Assembly (NCBI RefSeq): GCF_005222755.1
Contig: NZ_STGD01000002.1
Location: forward strand, 434,001 to 498,000
Reading direction: 5' to 3'
DNA: 64,000 bases
Source of the DNA: Roseomonas sp. HF4
Lineage (GTDB): Bacteria > Pseudomonadota > Alphaproteobacteria > Acetobacterales > Acetobacteraceae
The position numbers were made by a program, and so were the translations under genes. This document shows, piece by piece, positions 9,693 through 37,650 of the stretch. Each line of letters begins with the position of its first letter. Within the stretch, counting starts at the first letter, position 1. A model generated the notes under the pieces. It searched no databases, was not told the DNA's origin, and saw nothing but the letters and a program-made list of their open reading frames with translations.

Positions 9693-10903
9693 CAGGCCGC
9701 GCGCCTCAGGCTGAAGCGCGACCACACCTTCTCGAGCGCCGAGACGAGGTGGTCCATGTCGGCGTCGCTGTGCACGGGGGAAGGCGTGATGCGCAGCCGC
9801 TCGGTGCCGCGCGGTACCGTCGGGTAGTTGATCGGCTGGACATAGACGCCGTGCTCATCGAGCAGGATGTCACTGATGTCCTTGCAGATGACGGGGTCGT
9901 AGACCATCACCGGCACGATGTGGCTGTTGTTGGGGAGGTGCGGCACGCCGATCGCATCGAGCCGCCGGCGCAGCGTGGCCGCGCGTTCGTGCAGCCGCTC
10001 GCGTTCCGTGTTCGACTGGCGCAGGTGCTGGATCGCGGCGCGCGCCCCGGCGGCGACCGCCGGCGGCAGCGCGGTCGAGAAGATGAAGCCCGAGGCGAAG
10101 GACCGCACGAAGTCGCACATCGCGTGGGAGCCCGCGATGTAGCCGCCGATCACGCCGAACGCCTTGGCGAGCGTGCCCTCGATGACGGTCAGGCGATGCG
10201 CGACGCCGTCACGCTCGGTCACGCCGCCGCCCGTCGCGCCGTAGAGGCCGACGCCGTGGACCTCGTCGCAATAGGTCATGGCGCCGAATTCATCGGCCAC
10301 GTCGCAGATCTCGGCGATCGGCGCGATGTCGCCGTCCATGGAATAGACGCTCTCGAAGGCGACCAGCTTCGGCGCCTTGGGGTCGAGTTCCGACAGCACG
10401 CGGCGCAGGTCGATCACGTCGTTGTGGCGGAACAGCCGGCGCTCGGCGCGCGAATGGCGCATGCCCTCGATCATCGATGCGTGGTTCATCTCGTCGGAGA
10501 CGATGACGCAGCCCGGCATGCGCGACGCGAGCGTGGAGAGCGAGGCCCAGTTCGACATGTAGCCGGAGTTGAACAGCAGCGCCGCCTCGGTCCCGTGCAG
10601 CGCGGCGAGTTCCTGTTCCAGCAGAACATGCGCGTGGTTGGTGCCCGAGATGTTGCGCGTGCCGCCCGCCCCCGCACCATAGCGGTCGAGCGCCTCGTGC
10701 ATCGCGGCCAGAACCTTCGGGTGCTGCCCCATGCCGAGGTAATCGTTGGAGCACCAGACCGTGACCTCGCGCGCCTTGCCCGCATCGTGGCGGATGGCGC
10801 GCGGGAAGGCGCCCGCCTGGCGTTCGATGTCAGCGAAGACACGGTACCGTCCCTCGCGCCGGAGGCCGTCGAGCTGGGAGCGGAAATAGGCTTCGTAGTT
10901 CAT
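9692..10903 (-). CDS. hemA: 5-Aminolevulinate synthase HemA
   Basis: Condenses glycine and succinyl-CoA to ALA, the first tetrapyrrole precursor (C4 pathway of alphaproteobacteria). The 403-aa PLP enzyme has the Schiff-base lysine K247 in [10 protein letters not shown], preceded by the PLP-contacting YCDEVHG. A good Shine-Dalgarno (GGGGAGG) precedes the ATG at 10901-10903, which decides the start over an in-frame codon 45 bases upstream. It follows puhE after 109 bp, the widest gap in this operon, so an internal promoter there is possible; I saw no convincing PpsR pair in it. PGC-linked hemA may be one of two copies in the genome. Confidence 0.96.
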
Positions 10904-11012
10904 GAGTGACCTCCCCGGTCGGTCCGGTGCGCCATGTTGGGACAGCATGCGCGACGGCGCGACGCGATGCCGTAGGAAAACCGGGCAGGGCCCGCAATGT
11001 CCTTGATGCCGA

Positions 11013-12080
11013 TCATGCCGCCGCGGGCCTCAGGCAGGCTTCGAGAGCCGAGCGCAACCGCGCCAAGTCGCGCATCGGCCCGACCGCCACCACCCGCGGT
11101 GCCGCGTCGCCCGATGGCGCCACGGACAGCACCTGGGCCTGGCCGCCGGCCAGGTCGAATTGCACCCAGCCGGAGCCCGACCGCAAGGTGCCGTGCAGGC
11201 TTTCGACCCGGCCATAGGCGCCGTCCGCGACCTCCGCGAGCAGCCGGTCCAGCGAGGCCGCGTCGCAGGGCGCAGAGAGCCCGACCTCCCAGGCCGCCGT
11301 CCCCGGCGCGGGGCGTGCCGCAGCGCGCCGGTCCATCGCCCAGCGCCAGAGCGCCTCGACCGGGAGCGGCAGCATCAGGAACCAGTGCTCGAGCACCGCG
11401 AGCGCCGCCAGCGTGCCGAGCAGGCTCGCGGCCGTCACCTCGAAGGGGGTCGCGCCGGGCAGCAGCGCGCGGTGGAACAGCCAGGCGCAGAACAGCGTCG
11501 CGGCGGTCACGGAGAAGGGGAACAGCAGGTTCATCGGTCGGCTGCGGAAGTAAGTTCCGATATAGCGCAGATGGTCCGGCAGGAAGCCTTCGCCAGTGTT
11601 CCTGGCGCCCAGGAAGATGTTGATCTTGGTGCTCTGCCGCATCACCCAGAGGATGCCGAAGGTCCAGGCGGCCACCTGGTTCGGCGCGCCCCAGGACAGC
11701 GCGATCACCAGCGCCGCACCGCCGATGATCGCGAATTCGTGCCAGAGGATGGCGGCGATCGCCGCCACCACGCGGCGCGGCCCCTGGATCCCCGGCGGGC
11801 ATGGCGCCCGGCGCGGGCCGGTCAGGATGCCGGTCAGGAACGACAGCTCGATCCAGCCCCAGACCGCCAGCCCGCAGAGGAAGCCGAGATAGGCGCCCGA
11901 CGTGCTCGTGTCCTGCGCGAGCGTCGCGACGCCATAGAGGGCCAGCACGAGCACGACGGTCGCGAGACTCATGCTGCGCACGAAGGTCTCCCGCCGCAGG
12001 CCGTCCAGCAGCAGGATCAGCCCGGTGCTGAACCACCAGGCGAAGATCGTCACCAGTGCGGGGATGCCGATCTCGGCCAT
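11013..12080 (-). CDS. puhE: PuhE, photosynthetic complex assembly membrane protein
   Basis: 355-aa polytopic membrane protein with about seven hydrophobic segments in its first 260 residues (for example [24 protein letters not shown], and a segment starting [16 protein letters not shown]) and a soluble C-terminus. It matches the putative photosynthetic complex assembly protein PuhE, which affects reaction-centre/LH1 yield. The conserved inner part has [15 protein letters not shown]. The start is the ATG at 12078-12080. A longer open frame upstream overlaps acsF and is rejected. It lies 26 bp downstream of acsF in the order puhA-puhB-puhC-orf-acsF-puhE-hemA, the usual one in several alphaproteobacterial clusters. 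Confidence 0.92.
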
Positions 12081-23689: not shown

Positions 23690-25551
<1,862 letters not shown>

Positions 25552-25731
25552 CGCTTGACATCCTCCCGTCGGCCGCGTGGGCTGCCTGGCTGGCCTGTCG
25601 CCACCCGTCGGGGGTGGTGTGGCCGGCATCCGGGGAGTCAGACCTTAAGTGCCGTTTCCGACATCCCCTCATCCTGGCCTCCCGTGGCATGCTGCTCGAT
25701 GACGTGAAGGCTAGAAGTCAGGCGCGCCGAG

Positions 25732-25788
25732 TGTCAAGCGAGATTGACGTATTGATTGCTTGACACTTGGTGTCGGAAGGCATGAAGT
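25732..25788. promoter_or_regulatory. Divergent bchF/ppaA control region with overlapping PpsR boxes
   Basis: The 255-bp gap between bchF and ppaA contains a near-consensus PpsR box, TGT-N12-ACG, at 25732-25749 and a second, CGT-N12-ACA, at 25748-25765 that shares two bases with the first. A TTGACA at 25760-25765 coincides with the end of the second box and, 17 bp on, is followed by a weak -10 (TGAAGT, 25783-25788) facing ppaA. On the minus strand the first box likewise contains TTGACA facing bchF. The site therefore can control both the bchF superoperon and the ppaA-ppsR genes. Confidence 0.65.
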
Positions 25789-25806: not shown

Positions 25807-26724
25807 ATGGTCGTGAAGCCAATGGCCGGTCAGGAGCGTGGTGCAGAGGCCGAGCAGGGCGGATCGGAATCCGATTCATCCTTCGCCGACAGCCCGGCGC
25901 GCGCCGAGGGGCAGGCCCGCCCGGCGCCGCCGCGTCGGCGCCGCAACCGCGTCGCCGTCCTGGCCCGGACGCTCGAATCCGACATCATCCCGCGGCTGCT
26001 GCTCGCGCACCGGGCGGTCGCGACGGCCGCCTACATCGACCGCGGCCCGGGCGCGGAACCACAGGCCCAGGACGTCACGGCGCTGGTCAGCTTGGCGATG
26101 CAGGCCGACCTGCCCGGCGCGCTGTCCTACCTCGAGGGGCTGCGCGCCCGGGGCGCGCCGATCGAGCGCCTGTATCTCGAGCTCCTCGGCCCCGTCGCCC
26201 GCCGCCTCGGCGTAATGTGGGAGGAGGATCTCTGCGACTTCACCGCGGTCACGATCGGCCTGTCCTGCCTGCACCAGGTGGTGCGGGAATACAGCCCCGC
26301 CTTCGTCGCCCGCGCGCCGCAGCCCGAGCCCGAGCGCCGCATCCTCCTCGCCCCCGCGCCGGGGGAACAGCACAGCTTCGGCATCCTCGTCGTCGAGCAG
26401 TTCTTCCGCGGCCAGGGCTGGGACGTCTGGTCGGGCTCGGGACTCGAGAGGGTCGAGATCCTGGAGGCGGCGCACCGCATCTGGTTCGGCGTCGCCGGCT
26501 TCTCCCTCGCATGCGAGGACCATATCGGCGACCTCGCCCTGCTGATCCGCGATGTCCGGCGCGTCTCGCGCAATGCCGGCATCGGGGTCTTGGTGGGCGG
26601 GCCGCTCTTTATCGAGAATCCGGACCTCGTCGCCCTGGTCGGCGCGGACGCGACCGCGACCGATGGCCGGCAGGCGACGCTGCAGGCCGAGACGATGCTT
26701 GCCTTGCTCGGACGGGATGCATGA
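25807..26724 (+). CDS. ppaA: PpaA/AerR, B12-dependent antirepressor of PpsR
   Basis: 305 aa: an N-terminal Arg/Ala-rich region of about 48 residues, a helical region (about 50-165), and a C-terminal cobalamin-binding-type (SCHIC) domain. His189 in APGEQHSFGILVVEQFF matches the axial-ligand position used by AerR to bind B12. Near the C-terminus GVLVGGPLF is a typical Rossmann loop. AerR/PpaA binds PpsR/CrtJ and modifies its DNA binding in response to B12 and light. Position immediately upstream of ppsR confirms the call. A GGAGAGG sequence precedes the ATG. The N-terminal extension is longer than I expect. Confidence 0.92.
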   Translation: MVVKPMAGQERGAEAEQGGSESDSSFADSPARAEGQARPAPPRRRRNRVAVLARTLESDIIPRLLLAHRAVATAAYIDRGPGAEPQAQDVTALVSLAMQADLPGALSYLEGLRARGAPIERLYLELLGPVARRLGVMWEEDLCDFTAVTIGLSCLHQVVREYSPAFVARAPQPEPERRILLAPAPGEQHSFGILVVEQFFRGQGWDVWSGSGLERVEILEAAHRIWFGVAGFSLACEDHIGDLALLIRDVRRVSRNAGIGVLVGGPLFIENPDLVALVGADATATDGRQATLQAETMLALLGRDA

Positions 26725-26827: not shown

Positions 26828-28276
26828 ATGGCGCAGAAAGCAAAGGCAAAGTCGCAGGTGAAGGCCTTCAGCACGCCCAGGAAGTCGCTCGGCGACCTCG
26901 ACGCGGACGCCGCTGCCGCACTGATCAGTGCGGCAGCCGATATTGCCCTGATTCTCGACGAGGGCGGCGTCATTCGCGACGTCGCCTTCAGCAACGAGGA
27001 ACTCTCCGGCGAATTCGCCGCCCACGCGTCCTGGCTCGGGCAGCCCTGGATCGAGACGGTGGCCAAGGACAGCCGCCCCAAGGTCGAGGAACTGACCCGG
27101 CGCAGCGGGACCACCGGCGGACGCTGGCGGCACGTGAACCAGGTCTCGACCGAGGGCGCTTCCGTCCCGATCCTCTATTCCACCGCGCCCGTCGGCAAGG
27201 CGGGGCGGATCGTGGTCTTCGGCCGCGACCTCCGCCCGGTCTCTCGCCTCCAGCAGCGGCTGGTCGAGGTGCAGCAGTCGATGGAGCGGGACTATTCGCG
27301 CCTGCGCCAGGCCGAGACGCGCTACCGCCTGCTGTTCCAGATGTCGCCCGACCCCGTCCTGGTGCTGGACGGCACGACACAGCGCGTGACCGAGGCCAAC
27401 CCGGCGGCGATGCGCCTGTTCGGCAAGGACCAGCGCCGCTCCGTTGGTCGGCCGATCGCCGAAGCCTTCTCGGCCGATTCGCGCGCCGTGGTGCAATCCC
27501 TGCTCGCCTCGGTCCGTGCCGCGGGGCGGGGCGACGACGTGACCGCCCGGCTGGCCGAGGACAATGCCGAGGTCACCGTCTCCGCCTCAACCTTCCGGCA
27601 GGAGGGCACGCTGCTGTTCCTCGTGCGCATCGCCATGCCGGAAGCGACCTTGGTCGCGCTGCCGCCGGACAAGTCCAGGCTGCTCAAGCTCGTGGACGCC
27701 GTGCCCGACGCCTTCGTCGTCACGGGGCCGGACGGGCGCATCATCACCGCCAACGCCGCCTTCATCGAGATGGTCGAGGCCACGAGCGAGGAGCAGGTCC
27801 GCAGCGAGCCGCTCGACCGCTGGCTCGGCGCGCAGGATGTCGAATCGGAGGTGCTGTTCGGCCACCTGCGCAACCGCGGCACCGTCAGGCTCTATGCCTC
27901 GGTGCTGCGCGGCGAGCACGGCGCGCGGACCGAGGTCGAGATCTCGGCCGTCACGGTCATGCATGGCGGCAAGCCCTGCTTCGGCTTCGCGATGCGCGAC
28001 GTCGGCCCGCGCGTGCGCCCCGCCGTCGTCGGCGCCCGCCCGACCCGCTCGGTCGAGCAGCTGACCGAACTGATCGGCCGCGTCCCGCTCAAGGACCTGG
28101 TGCGCGAGGCGACGGACGCGATCGAGCGCCTCTGCATCGAGGCGGCCCTTGAGCTCTCGGGCGACAACCGCGCCTCGGCGGCCGAGATGCTCGGCCTGTC
28201 GCGCCAGAGCCTCTACGTGAAGCTGCGCCGCTACGGCCTTGGCGACCTCGGCGCCGAGCCGGGCGAGGCCGGATAG
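26828..28276 (+). CDS. ppsR: PpsR/CrtJ, PAS-domain redox repressor of photosynthesis genes
   Basis: 482 aa. Three PAS-like regions (about residues 30-135, 160-270 and 285-395), a Gln/Arg-rich helix linking the first two (LQQRLVEVQQSMERDYSRL), and a C-terminal Fis-type helix-turn-helix (about 437-472) with ASAAEMLGLSRQSLYVKLRR. PpsR/CrtJ represses bch, crt and puc genes in oxygen. The HTH-proximal Cys436 (ERLCIEAAL) corresponds to C420/C424 of CrtJ/PpsR. The only other cysteine is C384. The place of the partner cysteine (C249/C251) is occupied by LLFLVR around residues 262-267. No strong Shine-Dalgarno is visible before the ATG. Confidence 0.94.
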   Translation: MAQKAKAKSQVKAFSTPRKSLGDLDADAAAALISAAADIALILDEGGVIRDVAFSNEELSGEFAAHASWLGQPWIETVAKDSRPKVEELTRRSGTTGGRWRHVNQVSTEGASVPILYSTAPVGKAGRIVVFGRDLRPVSRLQQRLVEVQQSMERDYSRLRQAETRYRLLFQMSPDPVLVLDGTTQRVTEANPAAMRLFGKDQRRSVGRPIAEAFSADSRAVVQSLLASVRAAGRGDDVTARLAEDNAEVTVSASTFRQEGTLLFLVRIAMPEATLVALPPDKSRLLKLVDAVPDAFVVTGPDGRIITANAAFIEMVEATSEEQVRSEPLDRWLGAQDVESEVLFGHLRNRGTVRLYASVLRGEHGARTEVEISAVTVMHGGKPCFGFAMRDVGPRVRPAVVGARPTRSVEQLTELIGRVPLKDLVREATDAIERLCIEAALELSGDNRASAAEMLGLSRQSLYVKLRRYGLGDLGAEPGEAG

Positions 28277-31723: not shown

Positions 31724-32685
31724 GCGAGGTCGCGGAGAAGCCCGCGCAGCTGCGCATCGGCACGCGCGCCTCGCCGCTCGCGCTCTGGCAGGCGCGGCAT
31801 TTCCTGGGTGTCGTCGGCGGCTTCTGCCCGATGCTGCGCGGCGACACCTTCTTCGAGGAATGCGCGCTGTCCACGGCGGGCGACCGCATCCTCGACCGGC
31901 GCCTGGCCGAGATCGGCGGCAAGGGGCTGTTCGCCAAGGAAATCCACGAGGCACTGCTCGACCACCGCGTCGATTTCGCCGTGCATTCGCTGAAGGACCT
32001 CGAGACCGAATTGCCGCCCGGCATCGTGCTCGCCTGCGTGCTGCAGCGGGAGGACCCGCGGGACGCGATCGTGCTCGGCCCGCGCTGCGGCGCGCCTATC
32101 CCCGGCAATCCGCTCGCGGCCCTGCCGATCGGCGCGGTGGTCGGCACCTCCTCCGTGCGCCGGCAGTCGCAATTGCTGCATGCGCGCCCCGACCTTCGGG
32201 TCGAGACCATCCGCGGCAATGTCCAGACACGGCTCCGCCGCCTGGCGGAGGGCGAGTACGACGCGACCATGCTGGCGCTGGCGGGCCTGAAGCGGCTCGA
32301 GATGGCGCATGTCGCGGGCGTCGTGCTGGACGCCGAGGAGATGGTCCCGGCCGCCGGCCAGGGCATCGTCGGCGTGACCGTGCGTGCGTCCGACACGGCG
32401 CTGATCGACCTGCTCGCCGCCATCGAGGACCCGGCGGCGCGCGCGGTCGCGACGGCCGAGCGCGCGCTGCTCGGCGCGCTGGACGGGTCCTGCCGCACGC
32501 CGATCGGCGGGCATGCCCGCATCCTGATGGACGGGCAGCTCTATTTGACGGGCCTGGTGGCGCGGTCGGACGGGACGTTCCTGCACCGCCGGCGCGTCAG
32601 CGGTGCGGTCGCGGACGCCGCGCGCATCGGGCGCGAGCTCGGCGATGCGCTGCGTCGGGACTGCCCGGCCGACATCCTCTGCTAA
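31720..32685 (+). CDS. hemC: Porphobilinogen deaminase HemC, within the PGC
   Basis: Makes hydroxymethylbilane from four porphobilinogens. 321 aa with the catalytic Asp93 in HSLKDLETELP, the Arg-rich substrate segment GTSSVRRQSQLLHARPDLRV, and the dipyrromethane-attachment cysteine C258 in DGSCRTPIGGHA. The ATG overlaps the bchP stop (ATGA), so it is the last gene of ppaA-ppsR-bchG-bch2-bchP-hemC. hemC normally sits outside photosynthesis clusters, so this could be the sole copy captured by the PGC or a dedicated second copy. Confidence 0.95.
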   Translation: MSEVAEKPAQLRIGTRASPLALWQARHFLGVVGGFCPMLRGDTFFEECALSTAGDRILDRRLAEIGGKGLFAKEIHEALLDHRVDFAVHSLKDLETELPPGIVLACVLQREDPRDAIVLGPRCGAPIPGNPLAALPIGAVVGTSSVRRQSQLLHARPDLRVETIRGNVQTRLRRLAEGEYDATMLALAGLKRLEMAHVAGVVLDAEEMVPAAGQGIVGVTVRASDTALIDLLAAIEDPAARAVATAERALLGALDGSCRTPIGGHARILMDGQLYLTGLVARSDGTFLHRRRVSGAVADAARIGRELGDALRRDCPADILC

Positions 32686-32689
32686 CGGC

Positions 32690-32704
32690 AGCCGCCGCGC
32701 GGCT
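32690..32704. terminator. Small hairpin between convergent hemC and orf139
   Basis: AGCCGC-CGC-GCGGCT, a perfect 6-bp stem with a 3-base loop, fills most of the 19-bp gap between two convergent stop codons. No U-tract, so a bidirectional terminator is only a possibility. Confidence 0.3.
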
Positions 32705-33124
32705 TCAGCCGAACAGCCGCGTGAGCGCCACTGCGGCCGGGCGGCGGCGCGGGGCCGCGTAGATCTCGGCCGCACTGTCCTGCCGCCGGCGATTCACCTC
32801 GTCCGCCAGCACGCGCTGCAGCATCCGGAGGCGTTCGTCATCGAGCCAGGCGAGCCAGAGTCGCGCATAGGCCGGGTCATGCACGGGATCGAGCACCGCG
32901 AGCGGGACCTCGATGCCGGCCGCATGCCGTTCCACCTCGACCGCCGCGGCGCGGCTCGAGGCCGCCAGGGCCCGGAGGCGGCGCGGGTCGGTCACGAGCA
33001 TCGCGACGAAGGCGTCCAATTCGCCCCGGGCGCGCTCCAGGGCCACGATGTCCTGGGCATGGTCGGCGACGCGGATATCCGCCTTCAATCGTTCGAACGC
33101 CACCCGGTAGCTGCTGCCGTTCAT
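32705..33124 (-). CDS. Hypothetical protein orf139 with an upstream PpsR palindrome
   Basis: 139 aa that I do not recognise. Predicted all-alpha and soluble: long runs of Ala/Arg/Leu/Asp such as ALERARGELDAFVAMLV and RLWLAWLDDERLRMLQRV, and a basic tail (YAAPRRRPAAVALTRLFG). No cysteine and no signal peptide or membrane helix. It runs convergent with hemC and tandem with orf87. The reason to take it seriously is its promoter: a perfect PpsR palindrome ends 29 bp before the ATG at 33122-33124. It is therefore a candidate photosynthesis-regulon gene of unknown role, possibly pigment- or assembly-related. Confidence 0.72.
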   Translation of the reverse strand: MNGSSYRVAFERLKADIRVADHAQDIVALERARGELDAFVAMLVTDPRRLRALAASSRAAAVEVERHAAGIEVPLAVLDPVHDPAYARLWLAWLDDERLRMLQRVLADEVNRRRQDSAAEIYAAPRRRPAAVALTRLFG

Positions 33125-33153
33125 CGCGCGCCTCCCGTTCCGGCGAACCGGAC

Positions 33154-33194
33154 TGTCAGATTAAGCTGACAGTCACCGTCTTGCCAACATGACA
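33154..33194 (-). promoter_or_regulatory. Perfect PpsR palindrome (plus a weaker copy) upstream of orf139
   Basis: TGTCAGATTAAGCTGACA at 33154-33171 is TGT-N12-ACA with completely symmetric arms (CTGTCAG/CTGACAG when one flanking base is included), the best PpsR match in the window. A second copy, CGT-N12-ACA, lies at 33177-33194, 5 bp away. Both fall in the 90-bp gap between orf87 and orf139. Confidence 0.65.
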
Positions 33195-33214
33195 GTTCTC
33201 GCGGAACGACACGA

Positions 33215-33478
33215 TCAGCGGAGGCGGCGGGTAAGATCCACAAGATGGGCCGCCAGCGCCCCGACGAGCATCGCCGGCACCAGCGGCCACGCCGCCCCGG
33301 TCAGCGCGAATCGCAGCGCCAGGACCAGGAAGGCGCCCGGAAGCAGGATCGCGAGGATGTCCGAGACGCCCGGCCCGCGGCCGGCGAAGCGCCGCCAGGC
33401 GAGCAGCAGGGCACCTTCCAGCACCAGGCAGACAAGGATGAGATCGGCCACGTGGCCGCTGCGGACGAGCCATTCCAT
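33215..33478 (-). CDS. Small membrane protein orf87, unknown function
   Basis: 87 aa and mostly hydrophobic, with three probable membrane helices: HVADLILVCLVLEGALLLAW, ILAILLPGAFLVLALRFAL and WPLVPAMLVGALAAHLV, ending DLTRRLR. The ATG at 33476-33478 has GGGAGG about 7 bases upstream; a longer open frame to 33580 lacks this support. I cannot assign a family with confidence. It lies divergent from the cytochrome c gene and directly upstream of orf139 on the same strand, at the edge of the PGC. Repeated TTGCCAA motifs lie in its upstream region. Confidence 0.65.
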   Translation of the reverse strand: MEWLVRSGHVADLILVCLVLEGALLLAWRRFAGRGPGVSDILAILLPGAFLVLALRFALTGAAWPLVPAMLVGALAAHLVDLTRRLR

Positions 33479-33516
33479 TCCCAGCCTCCCGGCGCGAGGT
33501 CGCGCAATTTTCCAGG

Positions 33517-33567
33517 TTGCCAATGCTGAAAAGGCGACTAATTGCCAATAGGCCGGTTCACTTGGCA
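33517..33567. promoter_or_regulatory. TTGCCAA repeats in the orf87/cytochrome c divergent region
   Basis: TTGCCAA occurs at 33517-33523 and again at 33542-33548, with its inverse TTGGCA at 33562-33567, all within the 154-bp gap between orf87 and the cytochrome gene. The 25-bp repeat spacing and the inverted copy look like an operator array. No known regulator can be named. Confidence 0.3.
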
Positions 33568-33632
33568 CCAATCTGCACACGGTCCCGCTTCATCTCGGGC
33601 GGGCAGGTTCTGATCCGCGGGAGGAGTATCGC

Positions 33633-34016
33633 ATGCGACGTTTGATGTTCTCGATGATGGTGGCTGCGGCTGCGGCGGTTCCGGGCGTGGCCCGCGCGCA
33701 AGGCGATGCCGAGGCCGGCCAGCGCGTCTTCAACCAGTGCCGGGCCTGCCACACCATCAACGAAGGCGGCCGCAACGGCGTCGGGCCGAACCTCTGGGGC
33801 ATCGTCGGCCGCCGCGCGGCTTCGATCGACGGTTTCCGCTACTCCGCCAACATGCGGGAAGTGGCCGAGGGCGGCCATGTGTGGACCGTCGAGAACCTGC
33901 GCGCCTACATCACCAACCCGAAGGCCGTCGTGCCGCGGGGCAGCATGTCCTATGCGGGGCTGCGCAACGAGGCGCAGCTCAACGACCTGATCGCCTACCT
34001 GCAGGCGCAGAAGTAG
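33633..34016 (+). CDS. Periplasmic class I cytochrome c (c2/c550 type)
   Basis: 127 aa with a cleavable signal peptide (about residues 1-22, ending ARAQ), the haem-binding CRACH at 36-40 and the probable Met ligand M105 in RGSMSYAGLRN. The length and the GPNLWGIVGR loop fit soluble cytochrome c2/c550. It has a strong GGGAGGAG ribosome site. At the end of a photosynthesis cluster it is a plausible electron donor to the reaction centre, but it could equally serve respiration; the sequence does not decide. Confidence 0.88.
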   Translation: MRRLMFSMMVAAAAAVPGVARAQGDAEAGQRVFNQCRACHTINEGGRNGVGPNLWGIVGRRAASIDGFRYSANMREVAEGGHVWTVENLRAYITNPKAVVPRGSMSYAGLRNEAQLNDLIAYLQAQK

Positions 34017-37557: not shown

Positions 37558-37650
37558 TGGCGGAGGGGATGGGATTCGAACCCACGATAGGACTTGACAT
37601 CCTATAACGGTTTAGCAAACCGCCGCCTTCGGCCACTCGGCCACCCCTCC
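37558..37650 (-). tRNA. tRNA-Ser (anticodon GCU)
   Basis: Class II tRNA on the minus strand. The acceptor GGAGGGG (37650-37644) pairs with CCCCTCC (37568-37562), followed by discriminator G and an encoded CCA (37560-37558). The anticodon loop TTGCTAA gives GCU (decodes AGC/AGU), with a long variable arm as expected for serine, and the T-arm GGGTTCGAATCCC. No integrase or direct repeat of its 3' end was noticed, so it is not obviously an attachment site. Confidence 0.95.

Follow-up and report, generated by a model that had tools for sequence, protein, structure and literature searches.

A 64,000-nucleotide stretch of the Roseomonas sp. HF4 genome (contig NZ_STGD01000002.1, positions 434,001 to 498,000), called the window below, carries a photosynthesis gene cluster (PGC) and, at the edge of that cluster, orf139, a gene for a 139-amino-acid protein that starts close to a palindrome of the PpsR type. 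Sequence comparison indicates that both the gene and its PpsR-type operator are conserved, and the gene was found solely in the phototrophs of a single genus, the phototrophic Acetobacteraceae of Roseomonas/Neoroseomonas. Very probably orf139 has been overlooked as a photosynthesis gene, one that is not essential. We consider it likely that orf139 is a PpsR regulon member of this single genus, repressed by PpsR together with the pigment genes and probably encoding a small adaptor protein.

The palindrome upstream of orf139

The gene and the elements preceding it are as follows.

32705 to 33124, minus strand: orf139, open reading frame (ORF) for a 139-amino-acid soluble orphan protein, predicted to be all-alpha; ATG at 33124
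33131 to 33136, minus strand: Shine-Dalgarno-like GGGAGG, seen by eye in the sequence, 6 nt 5' of the orf139 ATG
33151 to 33174, no strand: 24-bp inverted repeat GACTGTCAG-ATTAAG-CTGACAGTC, containing the PpsR-type core at 33154 to 33171
33177 to 33194, no strand: weak second copy CGTCTTGCCAACATGACA (CGT-N12-ACA), 5 bp beyond the first palindrome

The core, TGTCAGATTAAGCTGACA, is a perfect TGT-N12-ACA, and 29 bp (33125 to 33153) lie between it and the ATG. The plain motif count is not striking and, taken alone, is no more than chance: the window holds six copies against 2.28 expected, and 4 of 100 shuffles reach six. Four of the six are inside long ORFs picked as coding, and those in promoter position are at 1215, 5' of a crtE-like gene, and at 33154. 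It is by its quality that the orf139 site is more than chance. Sites were scored with a matrix built from 13 Rhodobacter sphaeroides sites obtained by chromatin immunoprecipitation sequencing (ChIP-seq), namely rows 1 to 13 of Table 2 of PMC4344238, which in that table belong to genes annotated for photosynthesis, heme, or regulation; rows 14 to 19 were excluded. The site at 33154 scores 27.8 bits, which ranks first among all window positions and tops 12 of the 13 training sites, and the best score across 60 simulated windows was 18.6 (mean simulated maximum, 12.0). The second rank, 23.3 bits, is the site at 1215, where the crtE-like gene is a polyprenyl synthetase by Pfam, and the third, 19.0 bits at 25732, falls between bchF and ppaA.

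Conservation settles the question of chance. A perfect TGT-N12-ACA occurs within 115 nt of the start in all 21 orf139 orthologues, compared with 0.27 orthologues expected by shuffling their 150-nt upstream regions. The orthologues are not independent, owing to kinship, and they come from three clades that are deep in the PpsR tree; the site is at -34 to -60 in the window's own clade, at -68 in the lake clade, and at -108 to -114 in basal clade members. Across the 11 lake clade sequences the palindrome forms an island, invariant save for one central base, between flanks that are more diverged. The lake clade also has a second inverted repeat, AAGGC-GCA-GCCTT, downstream of the palindrome and roughly 38 to 26 nt ahead of the start, in 10 of 11 upstream regions (L003 and L012 to L021), with one mismatch in L017.

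An earlier note on this DNA, made from the letters, had described the perfect palindrome ending 29 bp 5' of orf139 and had called it the best PpsR palindrome of the window; the sequence and the matrix ranking agree with it on both points. It had also pointed to the CGT-N12-ACA copy 5 bp further out. That copy is present, and it is real as letters and weak as evidence, because at 9.5 bits it ranks 11th and falls short of the mean simulated maximum, and a relaxed second site within 160 nt occurs in just 4 of the 21 orthologues, the window included, so it is not generally conserved. The relaxed second site is at 8 bp in three orthologues (L007, L009, and L022).

The PpsR-type motif at other genes

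Four genomes of the genus were scanned for a strict version of the motif, TGTMAN8TKACA, and gene names were read from translations unless a family is cited. The 5.3-Mb genome of strain HF4 has the strict motif in two places, orf139 and a gene reading as bchC (backward control, 0). Genome G254 has it in six (control, 2): orf139, bchE, crtE, bchC, a BLUF-domain gene, and one further place. There are five in G271 (control, 1), at orf139, bchF, bchC, and two others (L088 and L090) at genes without a photosynthesis role readable from the translation, and three in G104 (control, 0), at bchF/ppaA, orf139, and crtE/crtI. By these translations, orf139 is among the strict-motif genes in 4 of 4 genomes, mostly beside textbook PpsR targets. 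The BLUF-domain gene (PF04940; L089, G254:C1:4126588-4129605), which is well away from the photosynthesis cluster, has a strict TGT-N12-ACA nearby and may encode an AppA-like blue-light sensor controlled by PpsR.

In the window and 19 named loci, a site of at least 18 bits was found 5' of orf139 in 20 of 20, 5' of bchF in 15 of 18, and 5' of ppaA in 13 of 18, the last two being one shared region. No such site was found 5' of bchB (13 tested), bchN (18), ppsR, bchG, or bch2 (19 each), bchP, hemC, or orf86 (20 each), cycA (9), or lldD (5). The 19 named loci (337 kb) contain 42 plain TGT-N12-ACA motifs, 19 of them 5' of orf139, 14 at the bchF 5' end, and 9 elsewhere. At the bchF 5' end in L083 (1501 to 1518) and related loci, the palindrome spans an in-frame ATG-CTG-ACA, which in L083 is the first start codon of the frame; the window counterpart (25543 to 25560) is degenerate, at 10.0 bits. 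The PpsR-type operator at bchF may overlap the start codon.

The arrangement at orf139 resembles that of PpsR/CrtJ promoters in Rhodobacter and Rubrivivax (bchC, bchF, crtI, and puc), where TGT-N12-ACA also stands near the start codon, and in this genus, as in that regulon, the same motif is 5' of genes reading as bchC, bchF, and crt. What differs is the controlled gene, which here belongs to an undescribed family. The spacing differs as well, since orf139 has a strong and a weak site 5 bp apart, whereas the Rubrivivax tandem described in PMC4452267 is spaced 8 to 9 bp. A second site of the Rubrivivax type, for cooperative redox-dependent binding, is not found at orf139, and such a site is no universal requirement.

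Distribution, linkage, and absence of orf139

Among the 35 genomes of the genus, orf139 is present in 21, that of HF4 included, and single-sequence and profile searches returned the same 21. Named carriers are R. rosulenta, R. rubea, N. nitratireducens, N. oryzicola, and N. marina. The gene bchB is present in 30 genomes and ppsR (TIGR02040) in exactly the same 30, including all 21 with orf139. The earlier note had named homologues equally common in non-phototrophs and unlinked to the PGC as grounds for refuting its proposal, and the proposal came through this check: orf139 is in 21 of 30 bchB-bearing genomes against 0 of 5 without bchB (Fisher P = 0.006, not corrected for kinship), and all 19 named loci have orf86, orf139, hemC, and bchP side by side, with ppsR visible in 18 of the 19, the contig of L056 breaking off before it.

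At the level of the family, 124 of 397 genomes have bchB, 113 of these being outside the genus, and a profile search found no convincing orf139 in those 113. That search, which returned 9 same-genus matches, scored 10 candidates per genome, and therefore very distant relatives could be missed; the 397 genomes of the orf139, orf86, and bchB searches are assumed to be one set. Two outside-genus matches at E values of 0.007 to 0.01, in genomes without a bchB match, were partial and marginal and were not accepted. Likewise, two weak partial matches outside the genus from a single-sequence search of 249 family genomes were rejected, and two extra weak matches (E values of 0.006 and 0.05) within genus genomes already carrying orf139 were dropped. 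No homologue was found in plasmids, in viral contigs, or in a first single-sequence scan of genome contigs.

Nine bchB-bearing genomes of the genus gave no orf139 match, and the hemC side is sequenced in six of them. In three (G160, G275, and G251) orf86 directly adjoins hemC, in G262 a gene for an IS4/5-type transposase (PF13340) lies between hemC and orf86, and in G267 and G268 both orf139 and orf86 are gone from the spot. In the other three, G261, G250, and G264, the contig stops short, so they do not count as decidable. The gene is thus absent from 6 of 27 decidable phototroph genomes and so is dispensable for keeping the photosynthesis cluster. In the six, the PpsR-type site is kept at bchF (6 of 6), and none was seen at orf86 (0 of 4). 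A PpsR tree of 28 rows, 25 of them with a known orf139 state (L056 and L075 were too short and were left out), requires five changes in orf139 presence, at least four of which are forced by well-supported branches. The simplest reading of this tree, not a proved one, is that orf139 was ancestral to the genus and was then lost repeatedly. Light-harvesting genes (PF00556) are found in 28 of the 35 genomes and do not track orf139 presence or absence: all six genomes without orf139 have PF00556, and G252, which has orf139 and is 77% complete, gave no match. In the basal clade, G104, G256, and G273 have two PpsR genes each, with light-harvesting genes about 3 kb from the second copy.

The orf139 protein

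The ratio of nonsynonymous to synonymous substitution rates is 0.02 to 0.16 in nine close pairs of orf139 and 0.28 to 0.61 in four distant pairs with the window, and these values indicate a real gene under purifying selection. Its product of 139 amino acids is soluble and basic and has no cysteine. The AlphaFold model, with a mean predicted local distance difference test score of 79.3, is all-alpha, with helices at residues 3 to 22, 26 to 45, 47 to 56, 58 to 70, 84 to 93, and 96 to 122. They are laid out as a well-formed N-terminal helical unit (residues 3 to 70), a flexible linker, and a C-terminal helix pair that carries a conserved motif, RlWxAxLxD-x7-RV-x3-E-x2-RR.

Searches of Pfam, NCBIfam, and PHROG profiles gave no match above noise, and no BLUF, PAS, B12-binding, or DNA-binding domain was found. 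Over 20 family members, Pfam returned scattered weak matches, the best (E value of 0.0024) in 2 of 20. Weak family names from Pfam, PHROG, and PDB (best PDB E value, 0.0051) were dismissed, as was the NCBIfam acetolactate synthase small subunit, at 19 bits against a cutoff of 128. No PDB match was obtained at an E value of 0.001 or below, and the absence of a listed fold is no evidence for a new fold. No paper on orf139 or orf86 was recognized in searches of the open-licence literature. Judging from the model and the profiles, orf139 appears to represent an undescribed all-alpha family, in keeping with the earlier description of a cysteine-free, all-alpha product with no nameable family.

Small accessory proteins of photosynthesis linked to the PGC include LhaA/PucC, PuhB, PuhE, TspO, AppA, and AerR/PpaA. 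The orf139 product differs from all of these in giving no profile match above noise and in lacking a transmembrane stretch. The antirepressors AppA and AerR/PpaA have a BLUF or a B12 domain, whereas orf139 has no Pfam family. LhaA/PucC are PUCC/major facilitator superfamily transmembrane proteins, in contrast to orf139, which has no PUCC match and no 19-residue window above 1.6 hydropathy.

Gene neighborhood and orf86

The cluster contains bchB, bchH, bchF, acsF, puhA, bchE, bchI, a 5-aminolevulinate synthase gene, and ppsR. The genes near orf139 and the presumed regulator are as follows.

25807 to 26724, plus strand: B12-binding gene adjoining ppsR (PF02310, E value of 8.9e-10), which we take to be ppaA/aerR-like
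26828 to 28276, plus strand: ppsR, the presumed regulator (TIGR02040, E value of 2.9e-142, over the cutoff)
31726 to 32685, plus strand: hemC, hydroxymethylbilane synthase (TIGR00212, E value of 2.9e-93); start coordinate provisional
33215 to 33478, minus strand: orf86, for a hydrophobic protein of 87 amino acids; it shares the strand of orf139 and lies upstream of it
33633 to 34016, plus strand: cytochrome c gene beyond orf86 and divergent from it (PF00034, E value of 5e-10), presumably cycA-like

The placement of orf139 at the PGC edge, convergent with hemC, as first proposed, agrees with these coordinates (hemC ends at 32685), and 4.4 kb separate ppsR from orf139. A sigma-70 scan of 32650 to 33700 found no promoter, and therefore we make no claim that the palindrome overlaps a -10 or -35 box. 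Rfam showed no element close to orf139; its single match in the window is a tRNA-Ser (gct) at 37558 to 37650 on the minus strand, about 4.4 kb past orf139. In three basal clade loci (L051 to L053), ispH (LYTB; about 10390 to 11386) lies between orf139 and hemC, directly 3' of orf139 on the same strand, and therefore may sit behind the PpsR-type site there; it starts 12 bp past the orf139 stop in L052 and L053.

The neighboring orf86 (in the window and in loci L091 to L131) is far more widely distributed. Of 397 Acetobacteraceae genomes, 101, from 35 of 102 genera, carry it. Nearly all of these, 98, also have bchB, and conversely orf86 is in 98 of the 124 bchB-bearing genomes, leaving 26 without it. 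In a set of 367 genomes of the class, 16 have orf86, 14 of them outside the family. Eleven loci from outside the family were compared; orf86 is close to bchP in 9 of them, and in 8 of the 9 a tspO-like gene separates the two. From its distribution, orf86 looks like a widespread undescribed photosynthesis gene.

Proposed function and alternatives

We propose that PpsR, whose gene is 4.4 kb distant, would bind the 24-bp palindrome and thereby repress orf139 together with bchC, bchF, bchE, and crt genes. This step is strongly supported by sequence comparison, and the joint repression with pigment genes is what PpsR biology, as set out in PMC4452267 and PMC10890935, would predict. By analogy with that biology, orf139 would be turned on while photosystems are being built. 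The product, in which no enzyme fold was recognized, would then most likely be a small protein-binding adaptor that fine-tunes the build-up of pigment or photosystem, helpful and not essential; the adaptor role is proposed with low certainty. More generally, it may have an assembly or regulatory role, as the earlier note suggested. A further and tentative suggestion, for which we see a small chance, is that orf139 founds a genus-specific add-on of the photosynthesis switch, a PpsR-repressed helical adaptor acting back on PpsR/PpaA or on photosystem assembly, which would have been gained beside hemC/orf86 and lost repeatedly.

Two reports counsel against reading too much into the site. According to PMC4344238, the expression of two R. 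sphaeroides orphans stayed the same when ppsR was lost, although PpsR binds strong sites at both, and in PMC10949492, on Sediminicoccus of the same family, the authors could detect PpsR sites only at bchC and puc. The orphans, RSP_2095 and RSP_3000, resemble orf139 in their strong PpsR motif and lack of assigned function, and they differ in that the orf139 site is conserved in the genus and the gene stands at the PGC. Such bound but unregulated genes (PMC4344238), together with the unsurprising plain motif count, are what would favor a chance or non-functional palindrome and a constitutive orf139, an idea we find hardly credible against 21 of 21 orthologues with the site, 0.27 expected, and more diverged flanks. 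It is very improbable, too, that the palindrome serves another regulator with a similar TGT-N12-ACA motif. The bound protein cannot be named from sequence alone, and two of the five strict matches in G271 are at genes without a readable photosynthesis role; against this, the strict motif in the four genomes otherwise marks genes read as bchC, bchE, bchF/ppaA, crtE, crtE/crtI, and the BLUF gene, the matrix derives from PpsR ChIP sites, and ppsR occurs in exactly the 30 bchB-bearing genomes.

Other alternatives accept the operator and concern the product. A feedback modulator that binds PpsR or its B12-binding partner PpaA, with the strong site closing the loop, would suit a site that comes close in strength to the best PpsR sites known, the conserved order with ppsR 4.4 kb off and ppaA beyond it, the lack of an enzyme family or fold, and repeated absence without PGC loss, as befits a tuner. 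We nevertheless regard it as unlikely, since the protein shows none of the BLUF, PAS, B12, or DNA-binding domains, and absence of orf139 is not matched by a separate PpsR lineage in the tree. Still less probable is a service in precursor supply that would tie the isoprenoid branch to the tetrapyrrole branch, for instance by acting on IspH or HemC. The position of ispH in 3 of 3 basal clade loci and the convergent hemC in other clades speak for it; yet of the 19 named loci just 3 were found to have ispH near orf139, the strand of hemC is not that of orf139, and six phototrophs live without orf139. The proposal in the earlier note of an unrecognized candidate of the photosynthesis regulon is supported by the conserved sites, by co-occurrence with bchB and ppsR, and by PGC linkage; it was right on the operator and, within what sequence can show, on the regulon, and it rightly did not commit itself on function.

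Significance

In our view, the catalogue of photosynthesis gene clusters in purple bacteria is treated as all but complete. Here an undescribed gene family stands under what appears to be a known, PpsR-type control, well supported by genome comparison. A conserved orphan with such control suggests that lineage-specific members of the regulon are still being missed. The more widely spread orf86 may be a more general unnamed photosynthesis protein. orf139 itself is a concrete and easily tested gene, since named strains are carriers, and close relatives that naturally lack it offer ready comparisons.
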